Positions 17,946 through 59,114 of a DNA stretch of 64,000 nucleotides are shown here, one piece after another (positions within the stretch are counted from its first letter, which is position 1; every line of letters begins with the position of its first letter). Below the pieces are notes generated by a model. That model saw nothing but the letters and a program-made list of their open reading frames with translations. It had not been told where the DNA came from and ran no database searches. This stretch comes from Nereocystis luetkeana (Eukaryota; Sar; Phaeophyceae; Laminariales; Laminariaceae): assembly GCA_031213475.1 (NCBI GenBank), contig JARUPZ010000027.1:5650132-5714131 (forward strand), read 5' to 3'. The position numbers and the translations under genes were made by a program.

Positions 17946-20900
17946 CTAGCCGACGGCGTCCTTCTCATCCGCGTCACTTCGATCCTCCTCCTCCTCCTCT
18001 TCCTCCTCGTCCCCTTCCCCCTCCCCTTCTTCCCCCTCCGCGCGTTGAACCGCCCGCACGAAGTCCTCGTCGACCTTGCACTGCACGCCGACGTAGTTGA
18101 TGACGGCTCCCTCCGAGTCTCGGAGGGCTGCGATGAAGAACTGGTTCCAGAACATCGCGCCGTCCACGCGGTAGTTGCGCAGGCACACCGAGGTGTCCTG
18201 TTTTTTTTTTCAAATAAATAGTTTTTTTTTCCGAGTTTTTTTCCGAGTTTTTTTTCCCAAGTTTTTTTTTTTTTTTTCCAATAATATTTTCATAACATTT
18301 TTTTTTTGTGTTTTTTTTCATTGTTTGCAGTTTTTCGCCGTGTATTGGTTTTCGTCAGGAACGTTTTTACACGAGATGTAGACGGTCAGGCACGAAAAAA
18401 AACAAGGAGAGCAAAGCAAGAGGAGGAAAAGGAAGGGGAGGGGGACGAACGGGCAAGGGTGGGGCCAGGGAGGGGTGTGTGAGAACGCCGGCACCTCGAA
18501 ACGGCAGTTCGGTAACAATCGAATGGACGTATCAAAAACACCACCAATACGTAAGGGTCCGGTTCACTACACACTCTTCGTCAATAAACAGGAAGGTACG
18601 TGTATACACTACACAGAGAGCTCTGATTGCTGTTCACGCATCCACATTCAAAACTCCTATCCTTCATAAAAGTCCAGAAACGAAGACATGTATGTACGTC
18701 TACACATCTCCAAAAGCACCGACCCCCCCCCCCCTCTCTGATCGAATTGTCTTCCTTTTAATCAATCAAGATCAACGCCAAAAAGCACTCACCATCCCCT
18801 TCTCGATGGCCTATGGAGTTGATCGAGGCAATGGTTTATAGGTTCCATGCCCACGCCGCGGTACGTGTGGAGACGGGGGTCGGGGTGGGGGCGGCGGCGG
18901 GGGTTGGGGGGGGTGGAGGGATGGGGGTTAACATCGTTCTGTAAGTACGGCCGGCCTTTTCGCTCGCATGGTGAAATGTAAGATATGCATACGGCTGGAA
19001 CACCGGCCGACCGACCGACCGATGCATTAACCGACCGACATATTCACTGACCAAATAACCAACATGACCGATCGACCGACCGACGACCGACGAACCGACC
19101 GAAATTTTGACCGACGACTGATTGGTAAAACAACCATCCGACCGACCGACCGACCGAAGATACGGACAGACGACTGATCAAACATCCGTCCGACCGACCG
19201 ACCGACCGAACGAACGAAGATACAGACAGACGACCGATCAAACAACCATCCGACCGACCAACCGACCGAAGATGCTCATTGAGCCACCGAATACACCGAT
19301 TGACAGGCAGAAAGGCTTGCTTGCCTTTCGGATCTTCTCCACCGCCTTCGGGTCCGTGTCTGGGCCCTGCAAAAACCGACAGTTTCGCCCAAGCACCTGC
19401 CGAGAGAGACCCAGCAAACCAGCAAAAACAGACACAGCAGCCAGACAGCAACGAAACAGACACAGACAGGCACCGGGGCGACGCCAGAAAGACAGCCGAG
19501 AGACACCAGACAGACACCAGGCAGCAACCAAACAAATAAACAGACAGGCAGATGCCGTCGGTCCAGGCGGCGGAGGGAGGCGTGTGGGTGAAGGGGGAGG
19601 GGAAAGGCCCGAAACGAAGAGGAGGAGGGGCGGAGGGGGGGGGGGGGGGGGTAATCGATACCATTCATGCACGACCGTAGTCGTATGACCATGAACCCTC
19701 CGGGGTGGGTGGTTTGGGGTGTCGTCTCTCTCGCGCCAACCATCACGCAGCAAAAACGTCAGCCGTGAATTCGTCGGTGCTCAACTTTTTGCTGTTGATG
19801 GATGTAGTTGCATTTTGATAATTCGATACTTCATCTACAGCAGCACCCGCTCTAAAGAGCAGTCCTATTAATAATACTCCTCCGTTTCATACCACTCTGT
19901 CCGGGAAAGTAAAGAACCGTGCGACTAATAAAGCGAAACCACCAAAACGTTTTTTTTTGTTTTTTACATTTTCGGACAAAGTAGTTGTGTCTATATACGC
20001 GTGACCACGGAAGTTGCATTTCCGTCTACATTTACTTCATAAACATAACCAGCACGAACGCTGGACCTGCCGAATGTATTCTGACGAGCAGAAACAACGG
20101 GTACATAAATGCGAAAAACAATAATTTACGTAATACAGTAGAAAAAACGAACGGGAGTTTGTTGTAAATACGTACCAGGTATTACGGACTTGCAGATACA
20201 GTATAACGGGGGACCATAGTTAATAGGACCAAATATTGTTAGTAAAAATAGCGAAATATACAGGTTTTTATGTATACCATAGGTCCTATTAACTATGGTC
20301 CCCCGTAATAGTGGGCCCTTCTGCATTGCCTGTTGCTCGCTATAGTGCCTGTGGAATCTCTCGCACAGACGGCATTCACCGGTGTGGTGGTGGGCAGAGT
20401 CGGGCCCGTGGTCGCTACAGTGTCGGTATCATTGGCTGGCACATACCGGCACTGCTGTAGAGGGACTTCTATCGTATTCACGAAAGAGGGTAGCTCTCGA
20501 TGGCAACTCGCGCTGCTCGATACCTGCAACTATCGTCAAGCAAAGCATGTGTACGCTGTGTATACGTTGGTGGTTGGTCGAAGGCATTTTTTTTTCTTCG
20601 GAGATGGCCTTTCTTTGTCAGAGATTTTCGGTCCCGGACGGCGCGGGTCTCCGGATTCACATTTCTACAGGATCTCCAGGTCCACCCCACCTTTTTTTCA
20701 TCCCCTTTACTTTCCAGCCTACGAACTCGTAAGAGGTTTTACCCTCAGCGATCTTCTGGACTAGCCGTGGTCACAGGTGCCGTTCCTTCTACCCCCCCGG
20801 TACGTGCCTTTATTTTTTGTCGCGCATAGGGTTCAGCATTCCCACTGCTCGTCGATTTTCATCTAATGTAGCTAATTCACGCTCTCGCGCTTTTCGACAA

Positions 20901-31940: not shown

Positions 31941-32790
31941 ACTCGTGGGAGCTTTTTACCCTCAGCGGTCTTCTGCGTCTGGGCAAGCCGTCGTCACAGG
32001 TCTCGTTCTTCCCCCCCCCCCCCTTTTTTATAGGTTGGGTAGGTGTCGATTGGCAACGACACTGTAAAACATGCCGCTCACTACGTGAGCTAGACAACCA
32101 GGGTACCGTTTTTTTCTTGTTTTTTTTTGGCGGTCGCTCACAGCTGGTTGTCGAGTTAGATCATTTGTGCGAGGTAAAGAACCTTTACACCGCACAAGGG
32201 AATTGATCGTATCACGTGGTGTTCAAGGTAAGGCACCCAAGAGGCAGTTACATAGTACTCCCATTGCTGTCTCTGGAAATGCCTACACCGGAAATTAAAC
32301 CAACTCATTGAAGCTGTCGTCCATATGCAAGTCCGCCTCAAAAGCGGTTCTTAGTAGGATGCAGCTCACCCTTCATGCGACTCGCCAGACACCTCACGGC
32401 GCTTCGCGCTTGGTGCAAGCAATGTCTGCCTGGTCGGTGAAAACCCGACATGCTCCGTCCCGGCATTGTAGGGATGCGAGGGTCTATGGTCATACGACTA
32501 CGGCCATGCATGAGATCGAGTACATCTCTCCTATCGAGTACACCCCCCCCCCCCGATACGTGCCTTCATTTTTTGTCGCCCGTAAGCTTCAGAATTCCCA
32601 CTGCTATTAATAGTCGATTTCATCGATTGCACTCGTAGCCAACTCACGCTTTCGCGCTTTCCGCTATTAATAATCATTTTTTATGCAAGCAAAAGTCCTT
32701 GCGTAGGAGTATGCACTCGGTGAGACTTGAACCCACGAAATTGATCTTAGTAGGCGCGCCGACCACCTACCAAGCCACCAGGGTCACATG
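31941..32790 (-). mobile_element. SINE family 2, copy 2, interrupted by an R1 repeat
   Basis: The two halves lie at 31941-32025 and 32555-32790. Together they match the uninterrupted copy at 20725-21012, including the tRNA-like head (GTGGGTTCAAGTCTCACC, about 32720-32785, minus strand) and the ACCCTCAGCGGTCTTCTG end. The break falls exactly in the poly(C) tract of the SINE, where a complete R1 repeat (32026-32554) is inserted. Confidence 0.78.
32026..32554 (+). mobile_element. R1 dispersed repeat, full-length copy ending in poly(C)
   Basis: About 525 bp, beginning TATAGGTTGGGTAGGTGTCG and ending CTCCTATCGAGTAC followed by C12. Internal blocks include GCGGCATG...GTGAGCTAGACAACCA near the start, GCAGCTCACCCTTCATGCGA in the middle and GACATGCTCCGTCCCGGCAT near the end. 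Other copies retain the poly(C) end and are shortened from the other side. It has no ORF. The terminal 60 bp vaguely resembles reversed 5S rRNA text, which I do not consider proven. Confidence 0.75.
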
Positions 32791-34006
32791 CTCGAATATA
32801 ATTCATGTTGCCAACAAACAAGATGCGCAGAAACGAGTTGCTCCTCCTGACGATATTGCGATTTGACTCGCTCTTTCAATAGATATGGTGGTGGTGGAGC
32901 TGTACGAGCAGGAACGTGATGTATTTCGGACAAAAACGTGCAGCGCACCTGCTCATTAAAAGTAGTATCAACGAAGGAGAGCAGAAGCAGAGACACACCA
33001 GGGGCAGGTAACAGGGGCCAAGAGCAAAGAGCTCTTTCTGTGTGTCTACTACAAAAAGGGTCCGAAATCCCTGCGCCCACGCCCTCGTTGTTGCGCATCG
33101 CATCGCATCGGATCACACAGCAGTGCCACAGAGCACCACCCAAGCCGCTGACGCCGCTGCTGCTGTTCCTGGTACTGTTGTCGTTGATGCTGTTGCTATC
33201 GATGCTGCTGCTACGGCAGCACCAGCGGCAGTGCAGCATGAAGTCCACCAAGCTTCGTTCCGATCCGCGCTGTACCTGGTATGTATAGTCTAGTCACAGT
33301 CTAAAAGCATATGGAATCTTAAAAAGTTGAGTTTTTCCCGCTTTTCGTGTTCCCATTCAATTCCCTCATCAAGAAGAACCAGGAGAGCTCATTATAACAA
33401 GAGAAGCAGTCCGACTTGCGGTTTTTGCAGTCGTCCCCTGAGTAAAATCGCAGAGAAAGCTTCCCTCCCCAGGAGGAATACGACGGCTACAGAAACAACC
33501 ATCGCCGAGCGAACAAGGCAGGGGAGGAGGGGGCTGGCGTAGTTGGAAATAACGGAGGAGACGAGGCACCAAAAGTCAAAACCTCTCGGCAAAAAATGAT
33601 AAAGCAAGACCCACAGCCTCAACCTTCAACCTCACCTCTTTCCCTACTCGCGGACGCTAGCGCAAAGCCCTGCCTCGAGAAAAACCTCCACGCACAACAA
33701 CTTAATACGCTGTCTCCTCCGACACGCAAGTTGCGCGCGAGAACCTTCTCCGTCGGAGGATATTGCGTCTTCGCGCCGTCCGCTCTCTTGTGTGCACCTC
33801 AGCTCAAATCTTCACCTCTGGCCTTGTCGAAAAATTCCCAGTAGCTTACCGCCTGCCTATTGTAGAACTCCCTCGTGCCCGCTCTCTCGCTCCTCGCTCC
33901 CTCACTCACAACAGATAAGGCTCCACGCTCCACCCTCTCGACTTCCCCAGGACTTAGTTAACAACCGTTCTCCAGCCGTGTCGGCTCGAACGGACTATTT
34001 TAGACC
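32791..34006. other. Spacer upstream of SF3A2
   Basis: There is no supported gene. A GCT/CTG-rich stretch lies at about 33150-33240. From about 33600 to 34006 the plus strand becomes C/T-rich and presumably includes the SF3A2 promoter and 5' UTR. No TATA element is evident. Confidence 0.4.
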
Positions 34007-34240
34007 ATGCAGATATTCGTGCAAGGGCTGGGTGGTAACCACCACTGCGTCGATGTCAGCTCTCGCGAGGAGCGAGTATCGGGCTTGAAATCGGCTGTGG
34101 AGGCCCTGTCCGGCGTCCCGGCGTGCCACCAGCGGCTCACGAGCGGGGGCAAAGATCTCTCTTGCGAAGACCAGTATCTCGGCGACTATGGCATCGAGAG
34201 CGGAAGCACGGTGCGCCTGTACCTACGACTCCGCGGTGGG
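34007..34240 (+). other. Ubiquitin-like domain ending in Arg-Gly-Gly at the N-terminus of SF3A2
   Basis: The 78 codons share the ubiquitin start (MQIF) and end (LRLRGG). The region aligned to ubiquitin Lys48 keeps a Lys (K49 in SGGKDL), but only one other Lys (K28) is present. It therefore resembles FUBI-type divergent fusions more than ubiquitin itself. It is in the same uninterrupted exon as the SF3A2 zinc finger, so the fusion is not an assembly or splicing artefact. Confidence 0.88.
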
Positions 34241-37200
34241 ATCGACTTCCAGCACCGAGAGGGCTCAAAGTTCGGCGGTGGCGGCGTGATGTCGGAGGGC
34301 CAGGCCGCGGTCGATCGCCGGGAGAGGTTGCGGAAGCTGGCCCAGGAGACGGTGGACCTCAACAAGGACCCGTACTTCATGCGAAATCACCTGGGAAAAT
34401 ACGAGTGCAAACTGTGCCTCACACTGCACAACAACGAGGGGAACTACCTGGCGCACACGCAGGGGAAGCGGCACCAGCAGAACCTGGCGCGGCGGGCGGC
34501 GATGGAGGCCAAGAACGCCCTGGTCAAGCCGCAACCGTGAGTGACCTGGGTACCAGGTACCAGGTACCTGGAAAGGCCGTACGAGTACAATAATGAATAC
34601 CGGTACCACGGTACCAGGTACCTGGTAACATACTCGTCATACAAAGGCGCACAAACTCGTACCGGTAGTTCTTTTATTTTCTTTATAACCTGATACTCTG
34701 GTGCGAGTACTGCGAGTGCTGTCAGTCTTCCAGTACTGCTGTACTTCGATCGTGCTCATATACCGGCACTGCTACTACTGTATTAATAGTACCCGCAGTA
34801 TTTCGGGGTTATGCACTCTGTACTGCTGTGGGTACTTCTCTGGCGATATGATATAGTTGAAGTGCTTCAGGGCGGATACCGACCCGTAATATACTCGCAC
34901 TATATCAGATATATTGCGCGGTTCTGTACTGCGGAAAGTGCAGGCCTCGGTACTCGCATTGTTAAAAAATACAAAAACACTCTCCAATACTACCTGCCTG
35001 GTACACCAGTAGATCGTGGTTCGGTACCACGCATACTGCCAGTAAACCCATGCATTTTGGGGTGCGATGCTGCGGATACTGCCTGTAATCCCTGTAATTT
35101 GGGCGGATACTACAGTAGCAGGTGCGGATACAGTACATGGTGTTTCGGGGTTATGTACCGCTGATACTCCCAGTACCGGCAGTATTTCGGCCGTGAGTGT
35201 GTATACTGCCGATACGATACTGCCCGTACATGCAGCAACGGTATACTTGGTAGGTACTTCCTCCTGTGAGCACTCGTACTATTACGGGGGACCATAGTTA
35301 ATAGGACCTGTGGTATACATAAAAACCTATATATTTAACCATTTCCACCTTCAATATTTGGTCCTATTAACTATGGTCCCCCGTAATAATAGTCGGATTG
35401 TAAGGTTCAGTGCGAGCATCTGTGCTCCGTGCTTCGTTCTTACAAGCAGACGTACAGCAGTAGAATGGTATCGCATCTGCTACGTACCAGGTACCAGGTA
35501 CCTGGTATAGGTTTTCATGTATACCATAGGTCCTATTAGCTATGGTCCCCCATAATAGTACTTTGTACAGGAGTATATCAGGTACAGCATTGCGACGTTA
35601 CAATCAGTACAGGTATCACAGGCAGTACCACAAAGATCCTGGAACGTGGCAGAAATATCGAAATATCAGCCGCCGATGTGTCGGCGCCTGCCGGTACCAC
35701 CGGGACTGGAGGGTATTCAGCGATCCAAAATACATACCAGGTATATTTAACCATTTTTAATAACAATATTTGGTCCTTTTAACTATGGTCCCCCGTAATA
35801 CAACACCCCAGCATTACTCGCATACCTGTGTTACCGGCAAACAATAGCAATCAGCAGTATAGTGTCGGGTACAGCAGTATTTACCAGTAACCTGTGGTGA
35901 TCCTGTGGTGCTGTGGTACTCGTTATAATATACCTGGTACGTAACAGCGGTACTTGTATACCCAGCAGTGTATCCTTTACGACGTCACTAAGATCCAGTT
36001 TTTGGCATACCTTTTGATAGAGCAACGTCTACGCCGTTCGTGGTGGCCAGTAGGGGTGGTGGTGCGAGGGCTCCAGTGCTGTGCTTGAAACATCAAAGGA
36101 TACTACTTAGCAGCAGCAAATTTGATCTTTCCGGCGCTCCTGATCGGTACCTGCACCTCGCTGTATGAGTCATGAAACGATACTAATCAAGAGCATAAAA
36201 ACTGCTTGATACCGCGTACACCTTGCTGCGCCCGTGTAGGGCGCTACCAACGGTACAGCTACAGGCCCAGGTGGCTTCGCCTGCTACTAATAGTGCTTAG
36301 CCTTGTCGTCGAAGTATTGAATGAAACAGTGTCAGCAGCGCGAGAAGGGACCATTTTTCCGATTCGGCCAAGGGTAGGACAGCAGTATATGAGGGGTTGT
36401 TTTGGGGTAACAACGTTGTTATTTGTGATAAAACAAAGCATCTGATTGATCCGGTGCCTGACACATATGACAACATTTGCCCATGACCTACGCTCTCTCA
36501 AACTGTCGCAACGGTGATACTTCGAGCATTAGAACTGGAAAAATGTCGTTTTCGGTACGTATGAAACCATAACGGGTCGCAAATACATACTGGTACCACG
36601 TATACCAGAATTAGCGTTGCAGCTTGGAAAAAAAACGCGAAAAACAAACAACGCGTTAAGGCACTTTCATTTTTTTTTACCAAAGAGGCCCCTCCAGTGT
36701 TCAAGTACTGCTGTACTGCCAGGTATGAATACCAGGTAACCCAACTGCTGACTGCTGTCGTTGTTGGCTTGCGGAAGGGATTCAAAATAGGCACCCCTGG
36801 GCTTGCTGTTTGCTGTGCAACTGCTGTCCGAGGGGTTGGCGCATCGCGTATGTAGTCTGTGGTAGACCAGGTACCGCAGTAGTACTTCGTGTATATGCAC
36901 CCTACGAACCTTATGGCCAGGTAGGTATCTGGTATAGATATTTACCTGGTATTTATTTTCTCGGACTTGAACGGCACTCGCAACTATTTAACCCCTTTAG
37001 AACCGCAGTCCTGTTTGGGGACAAAACTACTTGAAATTTGACTGGTTTGTCCCCAAAACGGGACTGCGGTTCTAAAAGGGTTAATACTGCTTGCTGCTGC
37101 GGAGACGACAGGCTCGGCGCCTATAAAAGCCGACCCAGCATATCTCCACGCCCATCGCTGTGTTGTGGCTCCATATGATCACCTCCTCGTGGCCTCAGCA

Positions 37201-40109
37201 GCACAGCAGCAACACAGCAGTCGTCTTGGATTTTCGCTGTGTCCTTCGATACCTCGACCAATCCAACAGGGGAATCAGCCTTAGTCAAGGGGCTGTGCCG
37301 TGTTCGGTAGAGAGGCATGATATGTCATTATTATACCAGAGATAGTTTTGCAGCTGTAAACAAAACAAAAACGTGTACCCTGGTATATTTTTCGAAGACA
37401 GCAGTATGTTTTTGTTCTCCAGCCGAAGGAGCCCCCCAACCCTTTTAGGCCTGCAGTCCCGTTTCGGGGACGAACTACGTAGAATTTGAGTAGCGTGTCC
37501 CCCAAACGGGACTGCGGTTCTGAAAGGGTTGAGACGAATATGAGTGCATTTTTTATGATGGGGGTTGATGTCAAATGTACCCCAGCTGTAAAACCAAGTA
37601 GTTTGTTCCCGAGAGGTGGGTACATACAGTTTTAAAGGGGGGGTAACATATGAACTGTACCCCAACTCTAAATTTGAAGTGCTAACGCTTTGTCCCCGAC
37701 GTGGATGCGAGTTTCACAATAGGATTGCAATAATGTAAAACTTGCTCCAACTCTTCTTACGTAACCCTCAGGATAACACAGCCCCGCGAACTATTTTTAA
37801 TGTTGAATTTATCGATAACGGGGGCGACTTCAAAACGCGGAGCGATGCCTCTACTATGGAAGAATGCCTCGACTATTGCTAATAGTACTGCTTCCCAAAG
37901 CCACCTTTTCATTGTGTGCTCATAATACCCCCCATTGTTTTTGTTTGTGGAACAAATGCAGCTTGAAAAATCACCCCAGGCGGAGGGGTAATCTTGCGTA
38001 TCGAAACGGTAGTCGCCGAGACGTGTGGGAACAGTAGCTTTTTACTGGGGGCGCTGTAAAATATACCGCCAACTCTTATTTTTTATTTCAAGCAGTTTGT
38101 CTCCAGAACGGTTGTGGGCACAGTAGATTGCGAAGGGATCGAGATTGGCTCGGGTCATGATGCGGCGGGATTCGAGCCCGTGCGGGCTCTCCTGTACAGG
38201 TACTCGCAGCGCCGCAGACGTTGGGTAGATGCCGCTTCCTGGCTCCTCGTAGAGGGGGAGGGGGGGGGTGCTCATGTCATTCATGGCCGTAGCTGGAGGA
38301 CCATAGAACCTCGCACCCCTACAATGCCTGGGCGGGGGCAGGGAGGGGGGGGGGGGCGTACTCATGTGTTGCTCGCCTTAGTCCTTTGACCATTGACCAC
38401 GCATCCCTTTCGAGACGTAGCACCGTTCCTACTCCTAGTAGAGCCACCTCCAACAATTGGGCGCTCATTACGTTGTTTCCATATATTACATAGAAACTTT
38501 TTGCTAATCTTATCCCCTTCCTGTTTGGCCGTCTGTGGCCACCATCTACCTCCTAGGATAGCGATCGTTTTCTCGCTGCTATTCAGTGTATCAAACGCCT
38601 CCTCCATGTCACTTTCGTCTATTGGCCTCATCTCTTCTTCTAACACATCCCGTTCCTCGTTTGTACATTTCACATTCTCCTACTATTTGGGTTCTACTCT
38701 CATTGCCCAGGGAGGGGGGCGGGGGTGTACTCGATAGGAGAGTGTACTCGATCTCATGCATGGCGTAGTCGTATGACCATAGACCCTCGCATCCCTACAA
38801 TTCCGGGACGGAGCATGTCGGGTTTTCACCGATCAAGCAGTACTCGATAGGGGGTTGATCAATGCGCGAACGAGTTGAAGCATTGCATGAAACATCAACG
38901 GAGTGTGAGGGTTTTCCTGGTACAGTTGGGGCCTGCCGGAGCAGCAAATAGGTTCGGGGATGGTAAATAATGGTAACGATGATTATGATGATGTTGGCGG
39001 TAATCGTAATTATGATGGGGTATGATATGATGATGATCTATCTGCCTGAGACGACTTTGACATTGTTTTTTGGTACCGCTTTGTGCCAAAAGCCTTCGCT
39101 GAACAGGTGAACTAAATGGAAAAAAATCCTCGCCCCCCCGCCCCCACATAAAAAACAGTGTGACTCAGCGGGCGGGCAGTGCTGTGCGGTGCGGTGCGCA
39201 TTCGAAACTTTCAAAACCAGCGCTGACGTACTTAAATTTACAGTTTTCCGAATGTTTTAGTTATTTTGGTTGTCCCCCACCCCCCCCCTCAAATAATACC
39301 TCGGGTTAGCTCACACCTAAACATACCGGTGTACGTCAACGTTCAAAACTAGCAGGGCCATCACGGTGCAGACGCGGAACGTGATCAAGATCGGCCGTCC
39401 CGGCTACAAGGTAACCAAGGCGCGAGACCTGACGAGTAATCAGCGGAGCCTCCTGTTCGAGGTGGATTACCCAGAAGCCGAGGACGGCGCTCAGCCGCGG
39501 CACCGATTCATGTCCGCGTACGAGCAGAAGGTGGAGGCGCCGGACAAGGGTTATCAGGTGGGGGGATAAGAATTGAAGATGTAAACTTACTTACACTTGT
39601 CTTTGTCTTTCTTTCACTTGACTGTAATCACCTGCTTCGCAGTCAGGGAGTCTGCGACAAATAAACGTCGCTTCTACGATCTTTGGTTTCTTTGCGTGCT
39701 TGCTTGTCGTGCCACACTTTTTTTCTCGGAAGAAGAAATGAGATTTCTTTGCGTTCTTTGCTCCCTCATTCTATCCTCGTTGTAAAATTCCCCGCTCTAG
39801 ATTCAATATAAAAAATCCGACGGAAATTATCCGAAAAAATACCATATTTATCATGGAAACGAAAACTAAGAAAATCAGCTGTGAGATCGAGAATTGCGTC
39901 GATTTTATTATATATTTGCAAGCTGTGTGTGGCAATTCGATCGCACGGGTATATATATAGATATCTATTTGTATACACCAGGTATTAATTTCCAGAAAAA
40001 ATAACATCAGCTGCGAGATGCGAGGATTTCGTCGATTCTCGTATTTGCAAGCTGTGGGTGTGACAAAATCGATCGCGCGTACTATGCGTTTCACGTGACC
40101 TCGTGCGGA

Positions 40110-40142
<33 letters not shown>

Positions 40143-41038
40143 CTCATCCCATTCATTATCTTCGCACATATTCTTCTCTCTCTCCTTCCGACTCGTAACT
40201 TAGATCCGGGGACACGTAGCAGGCTCTTCTCCCCCCTTCCCGCTACGGTACGTGCCTTCATTTTTATCGCGAGAAGATTTCAGCCTTTTCTTCCCTCGTC
40301 GACTCGCATCGAATTGTGCCTACCCACTATGCATTGGATTCACCACTTTGTCCGGAAATGTACAGGCTGTTTTGGGGTATCATATTAGTACCCAAACGAT
40401 CCTTTCGTTTCCGGCTAGAGTGGTACCCTGTACCTGGTAGGGTTTTTTGTTTTCCTGGCAATGTTTAGGGTTGTTCTTGGGTTGGAAGGAGAAACAGTTC
40501 GTGCGAAACAAGTGTTGTGTTTATTCCGTATATGTTCCGCTTTTTTTTTATGGAGGTTTGGAGTTATACAGTAGTTTGGAGCGATGGAGCGTCGATTATG
40601 CGATTTTCGAATTGGGTAAAAAAAAAGGTGTGCTTCGGATCTTGACCCACTCTGAAAAAATTCCAACAGCATTGTTTGTCCCCCTCCTTTTCCGTCGCCG
40701 TCGCCCTCTCTTTCGCTTCCCCTTTTCCTCTGCCCCCCCCTCTTCCCCTTTTTCGTGTTTTTTTTTTTTGTGTGTTTTTGTGTTTTTGTGCTTGTTATTG
40801 TTGTGTTGTTCCTAACATTTTTGTCTTTTTTTTTTGGTCGCGGCGGCGGCGGCGACGGCGGCGGCAATAGTTTCTCCTGTTTGCGTGCGACCCGTACGAG
40901 ACAATCGGATTCAAGGTGCCCAACCTTAAAATCGACAAGCAGGAGGGGCGCTTCTTCACCAACTGGGACAAGGAGTCCAAGAATTTTACGGTAAGGCGTT
41001 CTTCTGTTGATTGTGTGGAGTGGAAGAGGAGAGAGAGA

Positions 41039-41072
<34 letters not shown>

Positions 41073-41770
41073 GTCCTGGAGAGAACGCTACAGTTTCGTG
41101 CGGCAAAGTTCGGAGCGTTTTTCTTGTTCGCGTTTCCGATTAAACTAACTTTTCTTCATTTCCGAGGATTGTATCGCCAGGTTGTTGACTTGAAAGCACT
41201 CCTGACAACCCTGCCAATCAAAAACCCTGATCATGAGGATCGGGGAAAAATATATATACCTGGTACGTACTGTGCTTATTTGGGCGAGCTGCTGTGTTCC
41301 CCGTGGTGTTGATGGCAGCAATAACACGAGTCCTCGGCAGCAGAAAAATCCTTCCTTCAAGGAGGCGGTCGGCGTAGTTCTTTGTCTTGTTTTACGTTGT
41401 TTCTCATTCGAATGGTGAGTTCTTCTGTGAAAGAGGGCCTCTTTTTCATTCGAGGAGGCTTTGGTTTTGCGCGTGCTATCAACCGGCGACATTCCCGGCC
41501 AACTCTAGAAAAACCAGTGCAGACAGACATTTCTTGTCCGTCGTATGCAGGATATTCACATACCCCAAAGCTTTTGCTTCAAGCGGAAGATTTATGAAAT
41601 GACTCCGTTGGTCCCCCCCCCCCGCTCTCCCTGTTCCCGCCCCCGTCTCCGCCCCTGCCTCCCCCGTGTTCTACCGCCCGTTTTCCCCGCGTGCCTCCTG
41701 CTACGCCTCCTTGTACCAGCTTCAGTTGTACTTTGAAGACGAAGCTAACACGGCTCCACCAGGACGTTGA
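34007..41770 (+). CDS. SF3A2: Splicing factor 3A subunit 2 (SF3a66/Prp11) with an N-terminal ubiquitin-like domain
   Basis: Four exons (34007-34536, 39356-39557, 40871-40990, 41720-41770) give 300 residues. Residues 1-78 form a ubiquitin-like domain starting MQIFVQ and ending LYLRLRGG. Residue 79 onward is SF3A2: IDFQHREG in place of the usual MDFQHR, RRERLRKLA, and the matrin-type C2H2 zinc finger with C134, C137, H150 and H156. Later exons give KIGRPGYKVTK and PRHRFMSAYEQ, then DPYETIGFKVP and LQLYFEDEANTAPPGR before the stop. SF3A2 is a core subunit of the SF3a complex in U2 snRNP and acts at branch-site recognition. The protein lacks the long Pro-rich tail of the animal form. The Gly-Gly junction suggests processing by a deubiquitinase, which is inference. 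Confidence 0.93.
35279..35388. mobile_element. MITE family 2, second complete copy
   Basis: The ends TTACGGGGGACCATAGTTAA and the complement surround an AT-rich centre. The AATATTTG block lies next to the right arm, whereas in the 20203 copy it is next to the left arm, so the two are in opposite orientation. It lies in SF3A2 intron 1. Confidence 0.8.
35500..35560. mobile_element. MITE family 2, half copy
   Basis: Only one arm (GGTCCTATTAGCTATGGTCC, then CCCATAATA) plus the adjacent inner sequence AGGTTTTCATGTATACCATA is present, matching the right half of the 20203 copy. The other arm is absent. Confidence 0.65.
35735..35803. mobile_element. MITE family 2, half copy
   Basis: The TATTTAACCATTTTTAATAA...CAATATTTGGTCC inner part and the arm ACTATGGTCCCCCGTAATA match the right half of the 35279 copy. 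The left arm is missing. Confidence 0.65.
36990..37082. mobile_element. MITE family 1, copy 4
   Basis: The inverted ends ACCCCTTTAGAACCGCAGTC and GACTGCGGTTCTAAAAGGGT are bordered by TTAA on both sides. This is the best preserved copy and lies in SF3A2 intron 1. Confidence 0.85.
37438..37531. mobile_element. MITE family 1, copy 5
   Basis: The ends AACCCTTTTAGGCCTGCAGT and ACTGCGGTTCTGAAAGGGTT have a few mismatches between the arms. It lies about 360 bp after copy 4 in SF3A2 intron 1. Confidence 0.8.
38255..38417 (-). repeat. Two R1-type repeat ends in tandem
   Basis: At 38255-38331 a G run is followed by TGCTCATGTCATTCATGGCC and a diverged R1 end. At 38344-38417 another G run is followed by CGTACTCATGTGTTGCTCGC and CATTGACCACGCATCCCTTT, a related subfamily also seen at 46915 and 47064. 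Both lie in SF3A2 intron 1. Confidence 0.65.
38362..38691 (-). CDS. Uncharacterised ORF fragment inside SF3A2 intron 1
   Basis: A minus frame of about 105 codons without an ATG start opens after a TAG near 38694, where AGTAG could also be a splice acceptor. It reads as ordinary soluble protein: acidic ERDVLEEEMRPIDESDMEEA, then ILGGRWWPQTAK and KKFLCNIWKQRNERP. The composition is unlike the low-complexity frames around it. I do not recognise the family. Its last codons overlap the R1-type end at 38344. It may be an exon relic of a captured gene or of a mobile element. Confidence 0.3.
38711..38840 (-). repeat. R1 repeat, truncated copy with poly(C) end
   Basis: A G run leads into TGTACTCGATAGGAG, then CATAGACCCTCGCATCCCTA and GGGACGGAGCATGTCGGG, as in the terminal part of the full-length R1. 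It stops around 38840. Confidence 0.7.
40111..40335 (-). mobile_element. SINE family 1, copy lacking the tRNA head
   Basis: A T32 run (40111-40142; a poly(A) tail on the minus strand) is followed by the family 1 tail and core (CTCGTAACTTAGATCCGGGG, CGTCGACTCGCATCGAATTG). The match stops before the A-rich linker and tRNA head, so this copy is 5'-truncated. It lies in SF3A2 intron 2. Confidence 0.75.
41041..41070 (+). repeat. Poly(G) tract in SF3A2 intron 3
   Basis: About 28 consecutive G follow GAGGAGAGAGAGAGGA, some 50 bp after the donor of exon 3. Length may be unreliable. Confidence 0.9.
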
Positions 41771-44175: not shown

Positions 44176-47100
44176 TCAGCTAAGAAAAATCGCCGACTTG
44201 CAGTACACCCGAAGGTGCCCGCTGTAGTCCGTCGCGAGAATCATGCACCCGCAGTAACCGCCACCCTCGCTCTCCATGACCCCCTTCGACAGCCCGCCCC
44301 GCACCGCCGTCACGCAAGCGCGCGACGTCGACTCCGGCACAAAGCACGCCGTCGTCACGATGCGGGGCGGGTCGAACGTGGCCTGGAAAGACTCGTGGCA
44401 GCGGTTTGTGTCTTTCTGTGACGGCGCCGCCGCCGCCGCAGGTCCGCCCGGCAGAGCGGTCGACAACGGGGGCAAGGCGGGCGACCCGGGAAGGGTAGAC
44501 GGCGACGTCGCTGCGAACACCCCCGTGCTCCACACGTACACCTTTTGAGGGAGGGGGGGGGGGGGGGGAGGGGGGCGTTGGCGGAGACATGTGGGTGTGC
44601 GTGTGCAGGGGGAGCGAGGGCGGAGCCCTGTGTAGGCGCCGTAAGCAGGGCGTGTGCGGCGAGAGAGTAAAATAAGCTCTACAGGTTTTGATGGCGACGT
44701 GGGATTGGAGGGGGGGGGGGGGTGTACTCGATAGGAGATACAAGGCGCTTCGCTCCGCGGGCGGCCTACGCCGCCCGCTACGCTCGCTCAGGAAAAAAAA
44801 AAGTACATCAAATTATGCGAAGCGAACAGAGGCCCACGATTGAGTTTAGTGTTTTCAAGGATCGTAATTGCAAACCGGCGACTTGATAATGCCAAGAGTG
44901 CCGCCGCCATGCTTCAGGAAAAAACAGCTCCGACGTCAGCTTGGATGCCACATATACGCTTCGCGTCGCGGATGTCGTACGTACGTACATACACCCCAGG
45001 TAGGGTACTACTGTCTGTTCTTATTTTCTTCTTTCGATATGCTCTATGTCTGTACTGTATGTGCGAAGAAAGCGGACAGCACGACACAGCAGCAAAAACA
45101 ATGAAAATGAAACCGAAAACTCGGAAAGGAAAAAATATCCCCGTCCCCGTTCGTGTAATATTTTTCTGCCTGATTGGAACACCTTACACCCGGTCGAAAA
45201 GAAGGAAAGAGAAAATCGCACAGAAGAGCTTCTCTCTCAGCCTCGTACGCCGCCCGCCCCTCTCGCGACCACCGCGCTACCGATTCGGTCCGGGTGAAGC
45301 TTTTATCACTTTCTGCCACAATCAACCCCGTCCCCCGCCCCGCGTGAAGCCAGGTGCTCACCGTGGCCGTCGTTTGCTAGCTCGATAACGTTGGTGTTCA
45401 AACTGCACACCTCCCTCTTTCAACTTCAGCGTGGTCGCAAAAATAAGCACCGCTTGAATATTATCTTGCCCTCCAGAACGACCTTTATAAACTCGTACAT
45501 ACTCTATCAACAATCATAAATCGAAGCCAGAAAAAGCCCGTTCATGCATCCCTCGTGTCTCGGGGCACACGCGACGCCTAGGCACGAAAGCGGCGACCGC
45601 GCTCCTTGCAACCCCCCCTCTACCCGCCAGCACCCGCTGGCACCCGCGACGGTGCCGGGTCCTCCCGCGATGCCGTGCTCGGAGAACACGCACGCACACG
45701 AAACGAAAGAAGAAAAAAGGAAGAAATGACCGAGAAAACAAAGAACTGCTGGAAAGGTCCGGCAAGTAATGAAAGGAGGCGGTTTGGAAGTGGGAGCTCT
45801 GAGAGGCCAGGGATGCACCAACCGAGCACGCTCAGGGGTTGTGATCTAAGTATGTAGTTCTATGTGCTCGATCTCATGCATGGCCGGTGGGTGGGTGGGT
45901 GTACTCGATAGGAGAGATGTACTCGATATCATGCATGGCCGTAGTCGTGTGACCATAGACCCTCGCATCCGTACAATGCCGGGACGGAGCATGTCGGGTT
46001 TCCACCGACCAGGAGCAGACATTGCTTGCACCAAGCGCGAAGCGCCGTGAGGTGTCCGGCGAGTCGCATGACGGGTGAGCTGCATCCTACTGAGATCCGC
46101 TTGTGGGGCGGACTTGCATATGGATGACATGGCCGGGGGGGGGGTGTACTAGATATCATGCATGGCCGTAGTCGTATGACCATAGACCCTCGCATTCCTA
46201 CAATGCCGGGACGGAGCATGTCTGGTTTTTACCGACCAGGCAGACATCGCTTTTACACCTAGCGCGAAGCGCCGTGGGGCGTTCGGCGAGTCGCATGAAG
46301 GGTGAGCTGCATCCTAATACGAATCGCTTGTGAAGCGAACTTGCAAACGGAGGACAGCTTCAATGAGCTACTTTATTTTCCAATGTCGCCACTTCCAGAA
46401 ACAGCAATGGGAGTACTAAGTAACTGCCTCGTGGGTGCCTTATCATAAAAAGTAAGTGGCACGACCTTTCCCTCTGTGCGGAGTGCAGGTTTTCCACTCT
46501 GAACAAAATGATCTATAGCTCGACCGCCAGCTGTGACCGACCGCCGAAAAAAAAACGCTACCCTGGCTGTCTAGGGTGAGCTGTATCCTACTAAGCAGTG
46601 CATGTCAAGCGGACTTGCATGTGGATAACAGCTTCAATGAGCTAATTTATTTTCCGGTGTAGCCACTTCCAGAAACGGCAATGAGAGTAATATATGACTG
46701 CCTCGTGGGTGCCCTACCATAAACACTACGATAATTCCCCTTGTGCGCAGTGAAGGTGCTCCACCCTGCACAAAAATGATTTACAACTCAATTTCCAGCT
46801 GTGACCGACCGCCCCAAAACAAAAACGGTACCCTGGTTGTCTAGCTCACGTTGTGAGCGGCATGTTTTACAGTGTTGTTGCCAACCGACGCCAACCCAAC
46901 CTATACATAACCTAGGGGGGGGGGGGTACTAATTGCTTGTTTTAGTCATTCAACCATTGACCACGCATCCCTTTGGAAACGGAGCGGGGGGGGGGACTAC
47001 GGCGTGAGAAGTAAGACGATAAAAGATGCCGCCCCGGGACAGCGGCGGGTGCGGCGGGTTGGCCGGGGGGGCGTACTCATTTGTTGCTTGCCATAGTTGT

Positions 47101-48893: not shown

Positions 48894-51800
48894 GGTAAGG
48901 CACCCATGAGGCAGTTACACAGTATACCCTTTGTTGTCTCTGGAAGTGGCCAGGCCAGAAAACAAAATCAATCCATTCGAAGATGTCATCCATACATCCG
49001 CCTCACGAGCGGTTCTTAGTAGGATGCAGCTCACCCTTCATGCGACTGAACCAACACCTCACGGGGTTTCGCGCTTGATCCAAGCAATGTCTGCCTGGTG
49101 GGTGAAAACCTGACGTGCTCCGTCCCGGCATTGTAGGGGTTCGAGGGTCTATGGTCATACGACTACGGCAATGCAGGACATGAGTACATCCCCCCCTATC
49201 CCTTCCCCCTCATTGCGCGAACGGTGGAGAGCCTCCGCATGTCAACGAAAACCCGTCTACGGGAACACGCCACCGGAATCATGCCAACGGTAACACATCA
49301 ACGGAAGGCACGCCACCGGCAACACATCAAAACACGCCAACAGAAACCCCGCGAAAGGATAAAAAATACCTCACAAAACTTACAACGTATCCATGCACGC
49401 CAGCAGTACGAGCAGCCGCACGCACGTACGTACGCACGCACGCACGCACGCAAAAACATACGGACGCACAGGCACACACGGACACACGCACACGTGCACA
49501 CATACATGCCCACACCTACACACATCGCACGCTCGCGGGAGGAGTGGGTAGCTGGGTCGGGGGGGGGAAGGGGGATGGCATCATCACCTGGCCCATGTAG
49601 AGCCCGGCAACGATCATCTGACCGTCCAGGCTGAACTTCGCCGCCGTGACCATGTCCGGGGCCTGCTGCCACTCGTGCACGCGGCCGTCCCGGATGTTCC
49701 AGACGCGGACCTTCTTGTCAAAGCAGCCCGACAGGAAGAAATGTTCGAAGCAAGGGTGGAAGTCCACCGAGGTCACGGTCTCCGCGTGCTGGAAGAAGTG
49801 CAGGCAATGCCCCTGGGTTGTGTGCCACAGCCGCACCTTTTGTGTGTTGGCGTTAGCGGCCGAAATGGTTGAATGAAAGGAACGCCAGGCGGTTGCGGTG
49901 TATGGCGGTGGCGGTCATAGAAGGACGAGGATAGAACGGGGAGGCGATAGGAGGGGAGGGGAGGGGAGGGGAAGGGAAGCGAGACGAACGGTAGGGGAGG
50001 GGTGGTCAGCTACTTGCATACCTGGCACTCTACATGGGCCGACCCATAGGGTCTTGCAGGCGGGTAACTTGTTTGCTAACCTACGCTCGCTACAACCAGG
50101 TTCCCCGATTCTCTATACTGCCTCGCTTCCATCAATCGAGTGCGACTCGTTATTCCGGGCGGCAAGCGTCAGGTGTACGCGCTGAGCGCTGAGCGCTACG
50201 GGGACGCTAGGCGACGGCCGCCCGGGGTCAAGCGGAACATCAACCAGGCGGCACGACGTCGGTATTGCCGCCGAGTCCTTTAAGTCAATCAGTTGATTCC
50301 ATCGCTTCTCAACATGATGCACACAACGCGGGGGAGTATTAGTGGGGCTAGCAAAACAGTTCCAGCAACTAACCCCCGCCGCTCCAGCCGCCGCTGCCTG
50401 GCTGCCTGCCCCCCACCCTCGTCCCCTCTCTCCTTGGAAAAATCAGCTACTTTCGGTGTGGGTGACTGAAAATGGTAACGGGTACCGTACATACGTTTTC
50501 CCGCAATGTGACCACCCTCCACTTTAAGCAAAAGCGGGGATGGTGGTGGTCTTGGGGAGGAGGAGGAGGAGGAGAGGCAAGGGATCATTTCCAGCGGTGT
50601 GAATCCATCCATCCATCTATCCAACCATCCCCTTGACCCTTTTACTACTGCAAAAAATAATCCACGCGATGTCAAGTAGTTATCCCCCAAAAACGTAGGT
50701 GATGTCCTAAAAGGGTTACGACAAAGGCCATCGAAGGACACGGGAAGGAAGCACAGTACGCACCGTCTTGTCGAGCGACGCGGACAACAGGAAGTCGTTC
50801 CTGGACCACGACAACGCCACGACGTCCCCCCTGTGCGCCTCCAGGATCTGCCACGGCGTCGTGTCTATCAACACAGTCGCCGCGGCCCTTTTTTCCGACG
50901 ACGGTCGCCCCCCCCCGGCCTCGTCGTCGCTGGCCGTGCTTCCTTTCGTGCCCCCTCCCCCCGCCCCTCCGGATCCGCCCGCCGCTTCTTCTGAACCTCG
51001 AGGGCCACCCTCGTTAGCATCGCCCCCGCCCCCACCTCCACCCCCACCCCCTTCGGTCGCATGCGCCGCCGGACTGCCCTCGGGAGGAAACGTCTGCCCC
51101 GTTTCGCCTCCTTTGCTCCGTCTGTTCCCAGCCGCCGCCGCTGTCGCCGTCGCCGCTGCCGGCGTGTCGGAAAAAGAGGATGAAGCCGGCGATGGAACAG
51201 AGCCGGCGGCGGCGGCCTCTTCGGGCCCGCTGCCGCTTGCTCCGTCGCCGATATCTTCCCTAACGTCCCCGACCCTGTGCAGGAGAATCCGGGCGTCCTG
51301 CCCCGCCGTGGCGAGAAACTTCCCGCTGTGGTTGAACGCGGCGGCCCAGATCGGCCCGTCGTGGCAGCGGAGCTCCTGGAAGAGCATGAGGCCCGCGAGG
51401 GTCTCCGATGATTCCTTCCCCTTGAGCGACACGCGGATGCCGGCCAATGCGTCACTCACCACCCTCGCCGCCGCCCCCATCCCGCCCGAGCCCCTGTCCC
51501 CCGCCGCGCCGGGGGTAACCGGCTTCGATGCATCCCCGTCGCCTTCCGCCACCGCCGCGCAGGTCGCCGTCGCGGTCGCATTGCCGGTGCTTGTTCTCGG
51601 AGACGAGGACGCGATTGCCGCGCTAGCGGCGCTAGCGGCGGTGGCCGCCGCCCCTGCAGCGTTCGCCGCCTTCCCGAACTTTTTTCGCATCATACTTCCC
51701 AACTGCTTGGCCTTTTCTTTTCGGGTGCTCGGTTTCCCGGGGGTCGGTAGCGAAGACCTGGGGGAGGCCGAGCCGGACCTGGGAGGCGGGAACTTGCCGT

Positions 51801-53691
51801 CGGCGCCGCTGCCACCGCTGCCGTGAACTGATCGACGCCGCTCCAACTCGATGAGGTCTTTCCGAGAGGGCAGGAAGGCGTAATCATCGACCGGCAGGTG
51901 CTGCTCAAGCTCGCGCAAGTCGAACTTTTGTCCCGTATCCTGCAGACATGCAGGCAGGCAGGCACCCATGGGGGCGCGAGTCAGGAGAAAAGTGGCAGTA
52001 GTGCAACGGGGTCAAGATCTGGGTCAAGACCTAGTAGGGAGTGGACGGGAGAATGAGGACCGCTTACTATTGATAGTAGATGTAAGAAGCGGCGAGCTTG
52101 ACCTCGTGCTCGTCAAATAATATCGCTCGTGTGCACAACAGCAAAACGTAAGCTGCCGCCAAGCGTCAGACAACCCTCCTCCCTTCTCCTCACCCATTGG
52201 ACCTCATTCCCCACCCGGACGGAATCACAAAAACAACAGTAAGTATACATAGTGCTCGCCTTGTTCACCACCATATACTTTTTGTCCGCCGTCCCACCGG
52301 TCGCGTCGCTCGCGGTCGAAGATCCCACCGAGCCGCCGGCGTCCATTCCCTCGGACCCATCTAGGTCTGCCGCCCCGACGCTGTCGCAGGTCGCGCTCGA
52401 CAGCGCCGACCTTGGAGAGGCAGGGCCGGAGGTCGCTCCTTCCCCCGCCCCCCCGCCTCTGCCCGAAGCGGGCGGGTTTGTCACGGTCGTCGTGGTCGTC
52501 GTGTTCGTTGTCGTCGCCGTCGATGTTGTCGCTGTCATTAGCGTTGGCGTTGTCGCCGTCGTTGACGTGGTAGATGTTGCTCTCGCCCTTCCCGTCGGGC
52601 TCCCGGCTCTCCTGGGTGGCAACGGCGGGGGTTTCGGCTTGCCTTCTCTCGACGGCGGCGCCGCTGCCGATTTACCGCTACCGCCGCCGTTGCCGCCGCC
52701 TGCTACCGCTGCCGCCCCTGCTGCCGCCACTAGCCGCCCTCCAGCAGGGGAAGCGGTAGCCCATTCCTGCTCCTCCTCCTCCCCCTGCCCCTCCTTAGCC
52801 GCCGGCTCGCAATCGTCGTCGGCGAAAGGGTTCAACGAGGACGATGCCGTCACGAAAGGGTTCAACGAAGGGGTCGGCGTCGCGAAAGGGTTCGTAGGAG
52901 CAGCCGCCGTTGTTGCTGTTTTTGGTGTTGTTGCTGCTGCTGCCGCCGCTGCTGCGAAGGCAGCCTCCTCGGCGAACGGATTGCTTTCTCTTCGCGGCGG
53001 AAGCGGTGGGGGTCGTCGTCGTGGCGACGACGACGGGCTGCGCGCTCCCCACAATGGCGCCTGGCCTGCCCCCCCCCCCCCGCGCCCTCCTCCCCCTCCC
53101 CCCCCCCCCTTCGCCAGAGAGACGACGAGAGCCGATATCGACAGGGGTGTGCACAGGAGTGTTCTCTGCGCTACTAATGTCCATCACGACGACCTTGGAG
53201 GGCTGCTGGTGCTGTGGGGGGGGCCATCGCCTCACGTCAGTAGCGTTGCTGCCGCCCTCCTCCGCTACGCTATTGTTGTCGTCGTTGTTGAAAGGATTCT
53301 TCGATCTGTATCCGTAGAATCCGTCGAGACCGAGGGTGCCTCCCGGCTCTCCTTCGTCGATGGCCAGCGAGCCCGGGGTTTCGAACTCTCCGGCCGTGGA
53401 AAAGGCAGAGACGTCTAGGTTTTTGCTGCTGCCCACGGACGCCAGAACGGCCATGAGCTCGGCGGCGGCCGGGCTGGGGAGGAGGGTCCCCGCGCTTGAA
53501 GACCTCGCGCGAGACGTGTTGCTGCCGAAGGCTGAGGAGGCCCCTCCGGTGCTGGACATGCGCCGCGCCTTGCCCACGTAGTCCATTGCGTCGTAGAACT
53601 CGTCGCCGGCGAGAGAGCTGTCGTTGGAGACATACTTATCGTGCGTCTTCTTCTCGGGATGCCGCTGCTGCTCCCCGCGTGCCTCGGCCAT
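44176..53691 (-). CDS. WDR44-like WD40-repeat protein (Rab11-binding family)
   Basis: Exons: 53691-52260, 51939-50764, 49836-49588, 48656-about 48473, 48113-47950 and 44541-44176, about 1190 residues. The N-terminal third is disordered, with five NPF tripeptides and two PPPLPPRR motifs. Exon 1 ends VVNK and joins DTGQKFDL, the segment before the propeller in WDR44. WD repeats follow: FNHSGKFLATAGQD, LSWSRNDFLLSASLDKT, VDFHPCFEHFFLSGCFDKKV, AAKFSLDGQMIVAGLYMG, LLVTTNDSRLRLY, SFSEDGKQIICGSENGK-VYVWSTG and ILATDYSGHLRVY. In animals WDR44 binds Rab11 on recycling endosomes; this function is inferred from family. The ATG at 53691 is clear. Exon 1 changes frame near 53040-53120 at C runs (length 1432), which may be an assembly error. 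The exon 4 donor is uncertain. Confidence 0.85.
44709..44737 (-). repeat. R1 repeat, minimal copy
   Basis: G13 followed by TGTACTCGATAGGAGATAC, the last about 17 bp of R1 and nothing more. It lies about 170 bp upstream of the last WDR44-like exon. Confidence 0.55.
44770..45000. repeat. Dispersed repeat, copy 2 (partner at 8155-8325)
   Basis: It shares CCCGCTACGCTCGCT, GGCGACTT...AATGCCAAGAG...CCATGCTTCAGGAAAA and a terminal GTACGTACGTACAT with 8155-8325, with moderate divergence. No domain is encoded. Confidence 0.55.
45862..47824 (-). repeat. Array of R1 repeats in the last WDR44-like intron
   Basis: Copies in the same orientation: 45862-45888 (fragment), 45887-46127, 46134-46573, a partial tandem duplicate 46574-46912, two related-subfamily ends at 46915-46980 and 47064-47100, a full-length copy 47100-47641, and 47661-47806. 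Each complete right end starts with a G run of 10-20 nt (poly(C) on the repeat strand). The duplicate pair 46298-46573/46574-46850 has a period of about 276 bp. Confidence 0.78.
48833..48893. repeat. (TA)n microsatellite
   Basis: About 28 TA units with one GTA interruption. It directly abuts the left end of an R1 copy at 48894. It lies in the WDR44-like intron between exons 3 and 4. Confidence 0.95.
48894..49195 (+). repeat. R1 repeat, 5'-truncated copy
   Basis: It runs from GGTAAGGCACCCATGAGGCA through GCAGCTCACCCTTCATGCGA and CGTCCCGGCATTGTAGGG to ACATGAGTACATCCCCCC. The first 190 or so bp of full-length R1 are missing. The orientation is opposite to the 45.9-47.8 kb array. Confidence 0.75.
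50632..50718. repeat. Degenerate MITE family 1 copy
   Basis: The ends GACCCTTTTACTACTGCA and GATGTCCTAAAAGGGTTA and a CAAGTAGTTATCCCCCAAAA interior recall family 1, but the arms no longer pair well. It lies in the WDR44-like intron between exons 2 and 3. Confidence 0.4.
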
Positions 53692-57738: not shown

Positions 57739-59068
57739 TCAAAATCCGGAAACTCCGGGGGAGTAAAAACTTGCGTCCCCTCCTTGCACCCGTTCGGCCG
57801 CAACCCAGTTTGAGAGTCTCCGCCGCGGCGTGCCGCCTCCACCGCCGCCTGCAGCGTAGCCAGCGCTGCCGTCATCTTCTTCCCCCCCCCCCTTCCCGCT
57901 GTTCCGCCGCCATTCCCGCCCCATCAAGGATGGAGAAGGAGTTTCATTCGAAAAAACGGCTGCGGCGTCCCTCCCCAGGGGACTGCAACTAGCACACCGG
58001 TGGGTCCAGCCACCGCGGTCGATTCGTCTACCTCCTCCTCCTCCCCCCCCCCCTTCCCATTGATCTCGCCCCCGGTGGGGCCCTAGCACACACCGGCGGA
58101 AGAGCTTGAAGAAACAGTTGCAGACCAGAACCACCAGGCAGAATAGGCTTGTGAACCACGCCATCGAGCTCAGCAGCATCCGGTTCTCTACCTCCAACAC
58201 CTTCGCCTGTTGCATAAAAACATATAAAACATGGCGTGTACGTGAGCAGCAAGAAACATACAGTAGTTTCGAGAACGAACAGGCGAGCGGGGCGGGGGTT
58301 GGGTAAGGCCGTGAGCGATACGGCCATGCGCGGCAGGTAAAAGGATGTGTGTGGGTCGTAGCATATAATTGTCTCAAGCCAGCAAGCATCTCCCCCAGAG
58401 AGAGAAAGAGAGAGATAGGAAGAAAAACACAAAACAACGGCAACAGTCAGGACGACGACAACGAAACCAACAACATCAACAACAACAAAAACAACAACAA
58501 AAACAACAACAGCCAACCACCATGGAGTCATTTGGTATCGCCGTTACCTGAAGCTCCTGAAACGCCGGCCACTGGTCCCCGATTTGCACCAAGTGGGCCG
58601 CCTGCGCGCTGAGCAGCTCTGAACGAGACGCGCGCGCCCTCTCCTGCTCCCGGAGCATCTGCGCGATTACTTCCTGGTAGCAGATGTGCACGTCGTCTGG
58701 ATGGGAGGAGTGAAGTGGGGCGGGGTGGGGGGGGTCGGGAGAGAACATCGCTCAATTAATAACTGTTGCTGGCAAGCGTCTTATCTCGTATTATTTTATT
58801 TCATCGCGGCGTGCTTCCACTCGCGGCGCAAACTATACATCATTGAAAGATAATTATGACAAAGAGAACAAGTCATCGCCTGCAAATGCTCCCGGAAAAG
58901 GTAGAACGGCACGGTTGTCGGACCTGCTTGCGCTGCGCTGTGCCGGGGGGAAAACACGCACGAGGCGAGGCTTACTGTACTCGCATGGTACGACAATTAC
59001 GGAACGCGAGAGGTACGTGCGGGAGGCGCCCCTGATCTGCCCCAGACGTGCCAGACGTGCACGGCAAT

Positions 59069-59114
<46 letters not shown>

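Follow-up and report, generated by a model that had tools for sequence, protein, structure and literature searches.

A ubiquitin-like domain joined through Gly-Gly to the start of splicing factor SF3A2 in Nereocystis luetkeana and other ochrophytes and oomycetes: a probable cleavable precursor

The SF3A2 gene of the brown alga Nereocystis luetkeana raises the question of why a spliceosomal protein should be encoded directly behind a ubiquitin-like (Ubl) domain, and whether that domain is removed to give the functional protein. The gene lies on the + strand of a 64,000-nucleotide stretch of DNA (contig JARUPZ010000027.1, positions 5,650,132 to 5,714,131), which as a whole is referred to as the window and to which all coordinates refer. 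Its features are as follows:

34001..34003, + strand: in-frame stop codon TAG, two codons 5′ of the ATG; the stop-to-stop open reading frame starts at 34004
34007..34240, + strand: Ubl domain, residues 1–78, ending LRLRGG (PF00240, identity to ubiquitin, AlphaFold)
34235..34240, + strand: codons of Gly77-Gly78, with predicted cleavage after Gly78 (GG position conserved in relatives)
34241..34264, + strand: IDFQHREG, the SF3A2 N-terminus (residue 79 is the counterpart of human SF3A2 residue 1)
34007..34536, + strand: exon 1, comprising the Ubl and SF3A2 residues 1–99 (GT donor at 34537)
34400..34474, + strand: matrin-type zinc finger PF12874, residues 132–156 (Pfam)
39356..39557, + strand: predicted SF3A2 exon 2 (tblastn with the SF3A2 core; AG/GT borders)
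40871..40990, + strand: predicted SF3A2 exon 3 (tblastn with the SF3A2 core; AG/GT borders)
41720..41770, + strand: predicted SF3A2 exon 4, LQLYFEDEANTAPPGR and stop (C-terminus scan; Ectocarpus relative P0002)

Exon 1 reads from the ATG at 34007 as MQIFVQGLGG...LRLRGG and then IDFQHREGSKFGGGG, in one open frame to the GT donor at 34537, and because the stop-to-stop frame opens just behind the TAG codon, this exon permits no longer N-terminus. The four exons are in phase, all introns are GT-AG, and the joined product is a 300-residue protein with ubiquitin, zf-met and SF3A2 domains, which the Pfam matches in it (PF16835, SF3A2, E 2e-37; PF12874, E 4.3e-07) identify as a member of the SF3A2/Prp11 family. 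The N-terminal motif of that family (MDFQHR or MDFQNR) is present as IDFQHR, the initiator Met being replaced by Ile. Residues 1–99 of human SF3A2, as seen in solved spliceosomes, align to residues 79–177 of the exon 1 protein, so that Ile79 stands at the place of the usual Met1; the first in-frame Met 3′ of the junction is residue 94, beyond the conserved SF3A2 N-terminus. An initial annotation of the window had described a Ubl-SF3A2 fusion with Gly-Gly at the canonical start and a lost initiator Met, and on both points it is borne out, with sequence, Pfam and the alignment to human SF3A2 in agreement on the fusion. Its uninterrupted exon holds for the passage from the Ubl into IDFQHREG and not for the whole gene, as exon 1 covers the Ubl and SF3A2 residues 1–99 and the rest lies in three exons. 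The top relative among the matches listed is an Ectocarpus protein (P0002), 90% identical along all 300 residues. The Nereocystis genome may also contain another SF3A2 gene that is not fused. Two 107-bp stretches of the window (20203–20309 and 35281–35387) have 28-bp inverted ends (GGTCCTATTAACTATGGTCCCCCGTAAT) and are MITE-like; one copy sits within intron 1 of the Ubl-SF3A2 gene, and lone ends are found additionally at 35529 and 35772.

Judged from protein sequences, the fusion extends beyond one genome and occurs in both ochrophytes and oomycetes. Relatives were collected in two protein searches, one with the 300 residues as query (best 120 of 3841 matches) and one with the junction region of relative P0043 (best 120 of 3116 matches), and since these are the best matches only, the sample leans to close relatives. 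Among the 120 best matches of each search taken together, 18 of 20 organism-named rows carry the fusion, and all 18 are ochrophytes or oomycetes. The domain that the initial annotation proposed to look for in orthologues occurs in both groups, and brown algae lacking it, which would have counted against the fusion, did not appear among the matches listed: all five of the named brown-algal rows are fused (two from Ectocarpus, and one each from Discosporangium, Choristocarpus and Hapterophycus). The other fused rows are from Heterococcus, Tribonema, Chrysoparadoxa, Phaeothamnion, Mallomonas and an Ochromonadaceae; from Saprolegnia, Pythium insidiosum, Albugo and Lagenidium; and from Fibrocapsa (Raphidophyceae), Chrysophaeum (Pelagophyceae) and Thraustotheca (Oomycota). 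The taxonomy of the last three was looked up, and the remaining named genera are taken by us to be ochrophytes or oomycetes. The two unfused named rows are both from oomycetes, Phytophthora ramorum (P0164) and Pythium oligandrum (P0152), and start MDFQNR without a Ubl. Rows named after MMETSP transcriptomes number six in the first search, of which four are fused (P0013, P0015, P0022 and P0078) and two unfused (P0071 and P0099), and two further fused rows have MMETSP-derived names (P0012 and P0023). A third search, from a divergent member (best 120 of 4154 matches), yielded 75 new proteins (65 read by motif and 10 motif-less ones by eye), none of them with a GG-ended extension; the named ones are from animals and haptophytes.

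The junction was compared in an alignment of 168 rows (167 proteins drawn from the best-match listings and the joined window protein), in 145 of which the extension is long (at least 55 residues), in 12 short and in 11 absent. There are four features to consider. First, the SF3A2 start is directly preceded by GG in 141 of the 145 proteins with a long extension, and the same holds for 90 of 94 representatives thinned to below 50% extension identity; elsewhere in the extensions of those 90 GG-ended representatives GG occupies 50 of 7101 positions, and in these sequences GG is found at the exact junction more than chance would predict. The four exceptions are P0061 (without a Ubl by eye), P0076 (AG), P0098 (GG three residues early, GGSRG) and P0165 (GG one residue early, GGA). 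Second, the residue following the junction is hydrophobic throughout (Ile in 122, Met in 19, Leu in two and Val in two of the 145). Pro after GG hinders cutting, and it is never found there in the same 145 rows, as is proper to a cleavable precursor. Third, the rate of change shifts sharply at the junction. Among 74 representatives, likewise thinned by extension identity, the median identity between pairs is 18% for the extension versus 61% for SF3A2, in a first identity set made up of 119 of 120 proteins (P0001, the window's own exon 1, was dropped) and the joined protein, with 101 long, 10 short and nine absent extensions. Among 23 brown-algal-type rows, hand-chosen for carrying the extension, the medians are 61% for the Ubl versus 99% for the exon-1 part of SF3A2, which starts IDFQHREG in all 23. 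Fourth, both Gly residues are invariant in two hand-picked alignments, one of 65 rows and one of 45 rows chosen for divergence, in which Pfam recognises ubiquitin in 50 of the 65 and 15 of the 45 rows, respectively. An N-terminal Ubl ending in GG exactly at the native start of its partner is the arrangement that defines cleavable ubiquitin and Ubl precursors. Among the short-extension rows, seven of 12 likewise have a terminal GG and may derive from truncated models, and five of 12 have just M, MS or MSG ahead of IDFQ. In separate observations, 22 of the 65 SF3A2 proteins in the larger alignment weakly match the Cactin C-terminal family PF09732 (best 2.5e-05), Cactin being described as acting together with Sde2 in splicing (PMC9508853), and one protein, P0145, combines Ubl-SF3A2 with an aminotransferase call (PF00155), perhaps through a gene-model or contig join.

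The extension in Nereocystis is recognisably of the ubiquitin family. With the Ubl alone as query, Pfam ubiquitin (PF00240) matches residues 3–76 with E 7.8e-13, and a profile of 26 Ubls compared with the PDB finds ubiquitin best among the matches listed (best 60 of 512). The structure prediction that the initial annotation had recommended, run on exon 1 with the 65-row alignment, gives a confident beta-grasp for the Ubl (AlphaFold block pLDDT 96–98 over residues 1–70), with strands and helices in the order of the ubiquitin-like fold family (PF00240). Confidence drops after residue 73 (pLDDT 81 for residues 71–80 and 55–56 for 81–100), with coil from 74 to 96, and from this model we read the junction as flexible and reachable. 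Ubiquitin proper was rejected as an identity for this domain, which is 39% identical to human ubiquitin and departs from it at the I44 patch and at K63: I44 is replaced by Thr, V70 by Tyr and K63 is lost, with K48 kept.

Such divergence is typical of the group, as identity to human ubiquitin across 141 Ubls has a median of 32% (range 16 to 97%). Individual sites were counted in 138 rows (the 141 minus three near-canonical members), with near-duplicates kept and with loop positions that are rough because the alignments are pairwise. The tail is as in ubiquitin in much of this set (L71 in 70%, R72 in 69%, L73 in 62%, R74 in 46%, G75 in 99% and G76 in 100%), as is F4 in 69%. The surface sites are retained in few rows (I44 in 7%, V70 in 3% and H68 in 16%), as are the chain lysines (K48 in 26% and K63 in 4%), and the median number of lysines per Ubl is two. 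A tail that is kept while signalling sites are lost is the pattern that would be expected if a protease reads the tail, and proteasome and chain roles are not needed. The three near-canonical members, P0021, P0026 and P0043, are 93, 97 and 96% identical to human ubiquitin, and fusions of this kind are expected to be cut in cells. P0043 has seven member sequences from two sources; P0021 and P0026 are each represented by one sequence, on contigs of about 1.0 and 1.3 kb respectively, for which an assembly chimera is possible. Their near-canonical ubiquitin may have been swapped back in, may have been retained or may reflect assembly error. In the tree described below, P0021 and P0026 fall together with P0016, a protein with a divergent Ubl.

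We propose that the gene product is a pro-protein, Ubl-SF3A2, which is probably cut after Gly-Gly by a deubiquitinase-like enzyme, as FUBI-eS30 and Sde2 are. Such a protease would cut after Gly78 to release a small free Ubl and SF3A2 starting at Ile79, and the product would have the native SF3A2 length with a hydrophobic first residue at the Met1 position. The Ubl would then be mainly a removable leader and no signalling ubiquitin. We infer the cleavage itself from sequence conservation and by analogy, and this conservation together with the place that the SF3A2 N-terminus is known to occupy in the spliceosome strongly suggests processing. In human activated spliceosomes the SF3A2 N-terminus is described as reaching the active site (PMC5835773), and SF3A2 and CWC24 as shielding the 5′ splice site (PMC10208982). 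Because this N-terminus inserts at the 5′ splice site, a globular Ubl on residue 1 would presumably have to come off; a domain of 78 residues at that position should not fit at the active site.

It seems unlikely that the Ubl instead remains on SF3A2 as a permanent domain, for example by offering a docking surface within U2 snRNP. SF3A1 does carry a C-terminal ubiquitin-like domain, and the Ubl has a confidently modelled fold and is found in many lineages. However, its surface is variable, to the extent of the 18% median pairwise identity given above, the ubiquitin contact sites are mostly lost, what is kept is the GG and much of the tail, and on residue 1 the Ubl would be expected to occupy the entry of the SF3A2 N-terminus to the active site. 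Very unlikely is a free-standing modifier, for which SF3A2 would merely be the carrier and which would be freed by cleavage and conjugated to other proteins; the LRLRGG tail resembles that of conjugatable ubiquitin and three members are near-canonical, but the Ubl varies even between close relatives and has a median of two lysines. Least probable of all, to the point of being nearly negligible, is a gene-model artefact, with a Ubl that is not translated or is part of a different gene and an SF3A2 start at some other site: the Met after the junction in 19 of the 145 relatives would allow an internal start in those, but in Nereocystis the junction has Ile, not Met, with the next Met only at residue 94, the Ubl and the SF3A2 start share one exon with no stop between them and a stop just upstream, the strongly differing Ubls of the relatives, some longer and some shorter, stay in frame with SF3A2 at the protein level, and transcriptome-named entries carry the fusion. 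Chance or a frame artefact was likewise rejected as a source of the arrangement, given the upstream stop, the common exon and relatives with the same fusion.

The fusion appears to be old, and not to be universal where it occurs. In a midpoint-rooted tree of the SF3A2 parts of 77 hand-chosen rows, in which the human row is long-branched and several forks are weak, a 16-row clade with Mallomonas and the Ochromonadaceae has 11 fused and five unfused rows, the latter beginning M-IDFQ, MS-IDFQ or MSG-IDFQ. Unfused SF3A2 proteins with Ile at the old start behind M, MS or MSG are P0055, P0071, P0110, P0111, P0120 and P0192; the retained Ile looks as if it were the scar of a lost fusion, unless these gene models are truncated. 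The two named oomycetes without the fusion are placed among fused rows, reflecting either loss of the fusion or models that start at an internal Met, and a 10-row group around Chrysophaeum includes three fused rows (P0115, P0082 and P0104) and seven without a Ubl. Because there are unfused oomycetes, M/MS/MSG rows and 11 rows with no extension, either the fusion is not always present or some of the models are truncated. The human row is also placed among fused rows, with weak support, and the tree does not prove a single origin. Nonetheless, the simplest placement of the fusion is ahead of the ochrophyte-oomycete split: ubiquitin and SF3A2 would have been joined before these lineages separated, and the initiator Met would later have drifted, mostly to Ile.

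We rate Ubl-SF3A2 as an addition to the known cleavable Ubl precursors, with an unusual partner. FUBI-eS30 (FAU), described as cut by USP36, is alike in having a diverged leader with few lysines and GG at the start of an RNP-bound partner. It differs in that its partner is ribosomal and the fusion holozoan, whereas SF3A2 is a core splicing factor and the named fusions with it are from ochrophytes and oomycetes. The residue after GG is Lys in FUBI-eS30 and mostly Ile or Met in Ubl-SF3A2. GG mutants of FUBI-eS30 are reported to remain uncut (PMC8354635). Sde2, cut by Ubp5 and Ubp15, is a spliceosomal protein described as being made with a Ubl that is cleaved off behind GG prior to spliceosome entry (PMC9508853); in that account the cut is at GG-K, the Sde2 Ubl can be exchanged for ubiquitin, the Lys at the N-terminus is required and processed Sde2 is short-lived by the N-end rule. 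The initial annotation had drawn this parallel, and it is sound for the Ubl-Gly-Gly-splicing factor layout, while the next residue is Ile and not the Lys of Sde2. The two also differ in that Sde2 is an intron-specific regulator with GG-K, whereas Ubl-SF3A2 gives a U2 snRNP subunit with GG-I or GG-M. Identity of the fusion as Sde2 itself was rejected, as its junction is GG-I rather than GG-K and its partner is SF3A2 by Pfam. Ubiquitin-eL40 and ubiquitin-eS31, PDB entries of which are among the structure matches to the exon 1 protein, likewise have an N-terminal ubiquitin-family domain joined by GG to an essential RNP protein. They carry true ubiquitin and supply the ubiquitin pool, whereas most SF3A2-fused Ubls are without the ubiquitin signalling sites. 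Algae are also described as having lineage-specific ubiquitin fusions, ubiquitin-NiSOD among them (PMC6332867), which are similar in being lineage-specific and whose partners include NiSOD and an integral membrane protein; the main text of that survey has no word beginning with 'splic'. A search of mainly open-access papers, judged by title, abstract and passages, found no report of a Ubl-SF3A2 fusion.

SF3A2 belongs to the core subunits of U2 snRNP, and in the activated spliceosome its N-terminus touches the 5′ splice site. Should a large share of eukaryote diversity make it solely as a Ubl precursor, general splicing in those organisms would need a ubiquitin-type protease, and ubiquitin and splicing would be linked at a constitutive step, as opposed to the regulatory one of Sde2. 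The Ubl, which drifts nearly everywhere outside the fold core and the cutting tail, would also constitute a natural experiment on what such a protease needs. The exchange of Met1 for Ile also means that N-terminal proteomics could detect the cut directly. In the N-degron rule, Ile counts as destabilising at the N-terminus, and so orphan SF3A2 might, speculatively, be removed as the Sde2 product is. A larger role is conceivable, though we hold it to be doubtful: a deubiquitinase step could license the spliceosome in ochrophytes and oomycetes, with capped pro-SF3A2 able to be folded, stored and even assembled while its N-terminus is barred from the 5′ splice site for as long as the Ubl is attached. 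Maturation of the U2 snRNP or activation of the spliceosome would then pass through a checkpoint, and the resulting Ile N-terminus would mark unassembled SF3A2 for N-degron decay, like the Lys of Sde2.

Across the 64-kb window, Rfam gave no matches. Away from the SF3A2 gene, an open frame with WD40 repeats (PF00400, E 7.7e-11) is present at 50719–52011 on the − strand, and an 856-residue open frame at 58975–61542, also on the − strand, matches the end of a Sad1/UNC (SUN) domain (PF07738, E 2.7e-07). A 34-bp sequence, counted with up to three mismatches, occurs eight times on both strands, at 32478, 42081, 45931, 46158, 47150, 47687, 49143 and 61856, where a mean of 0 is expected. It is a dispersed repeat, and at 45918–46356 it lies within an array of about two 227-bp units.
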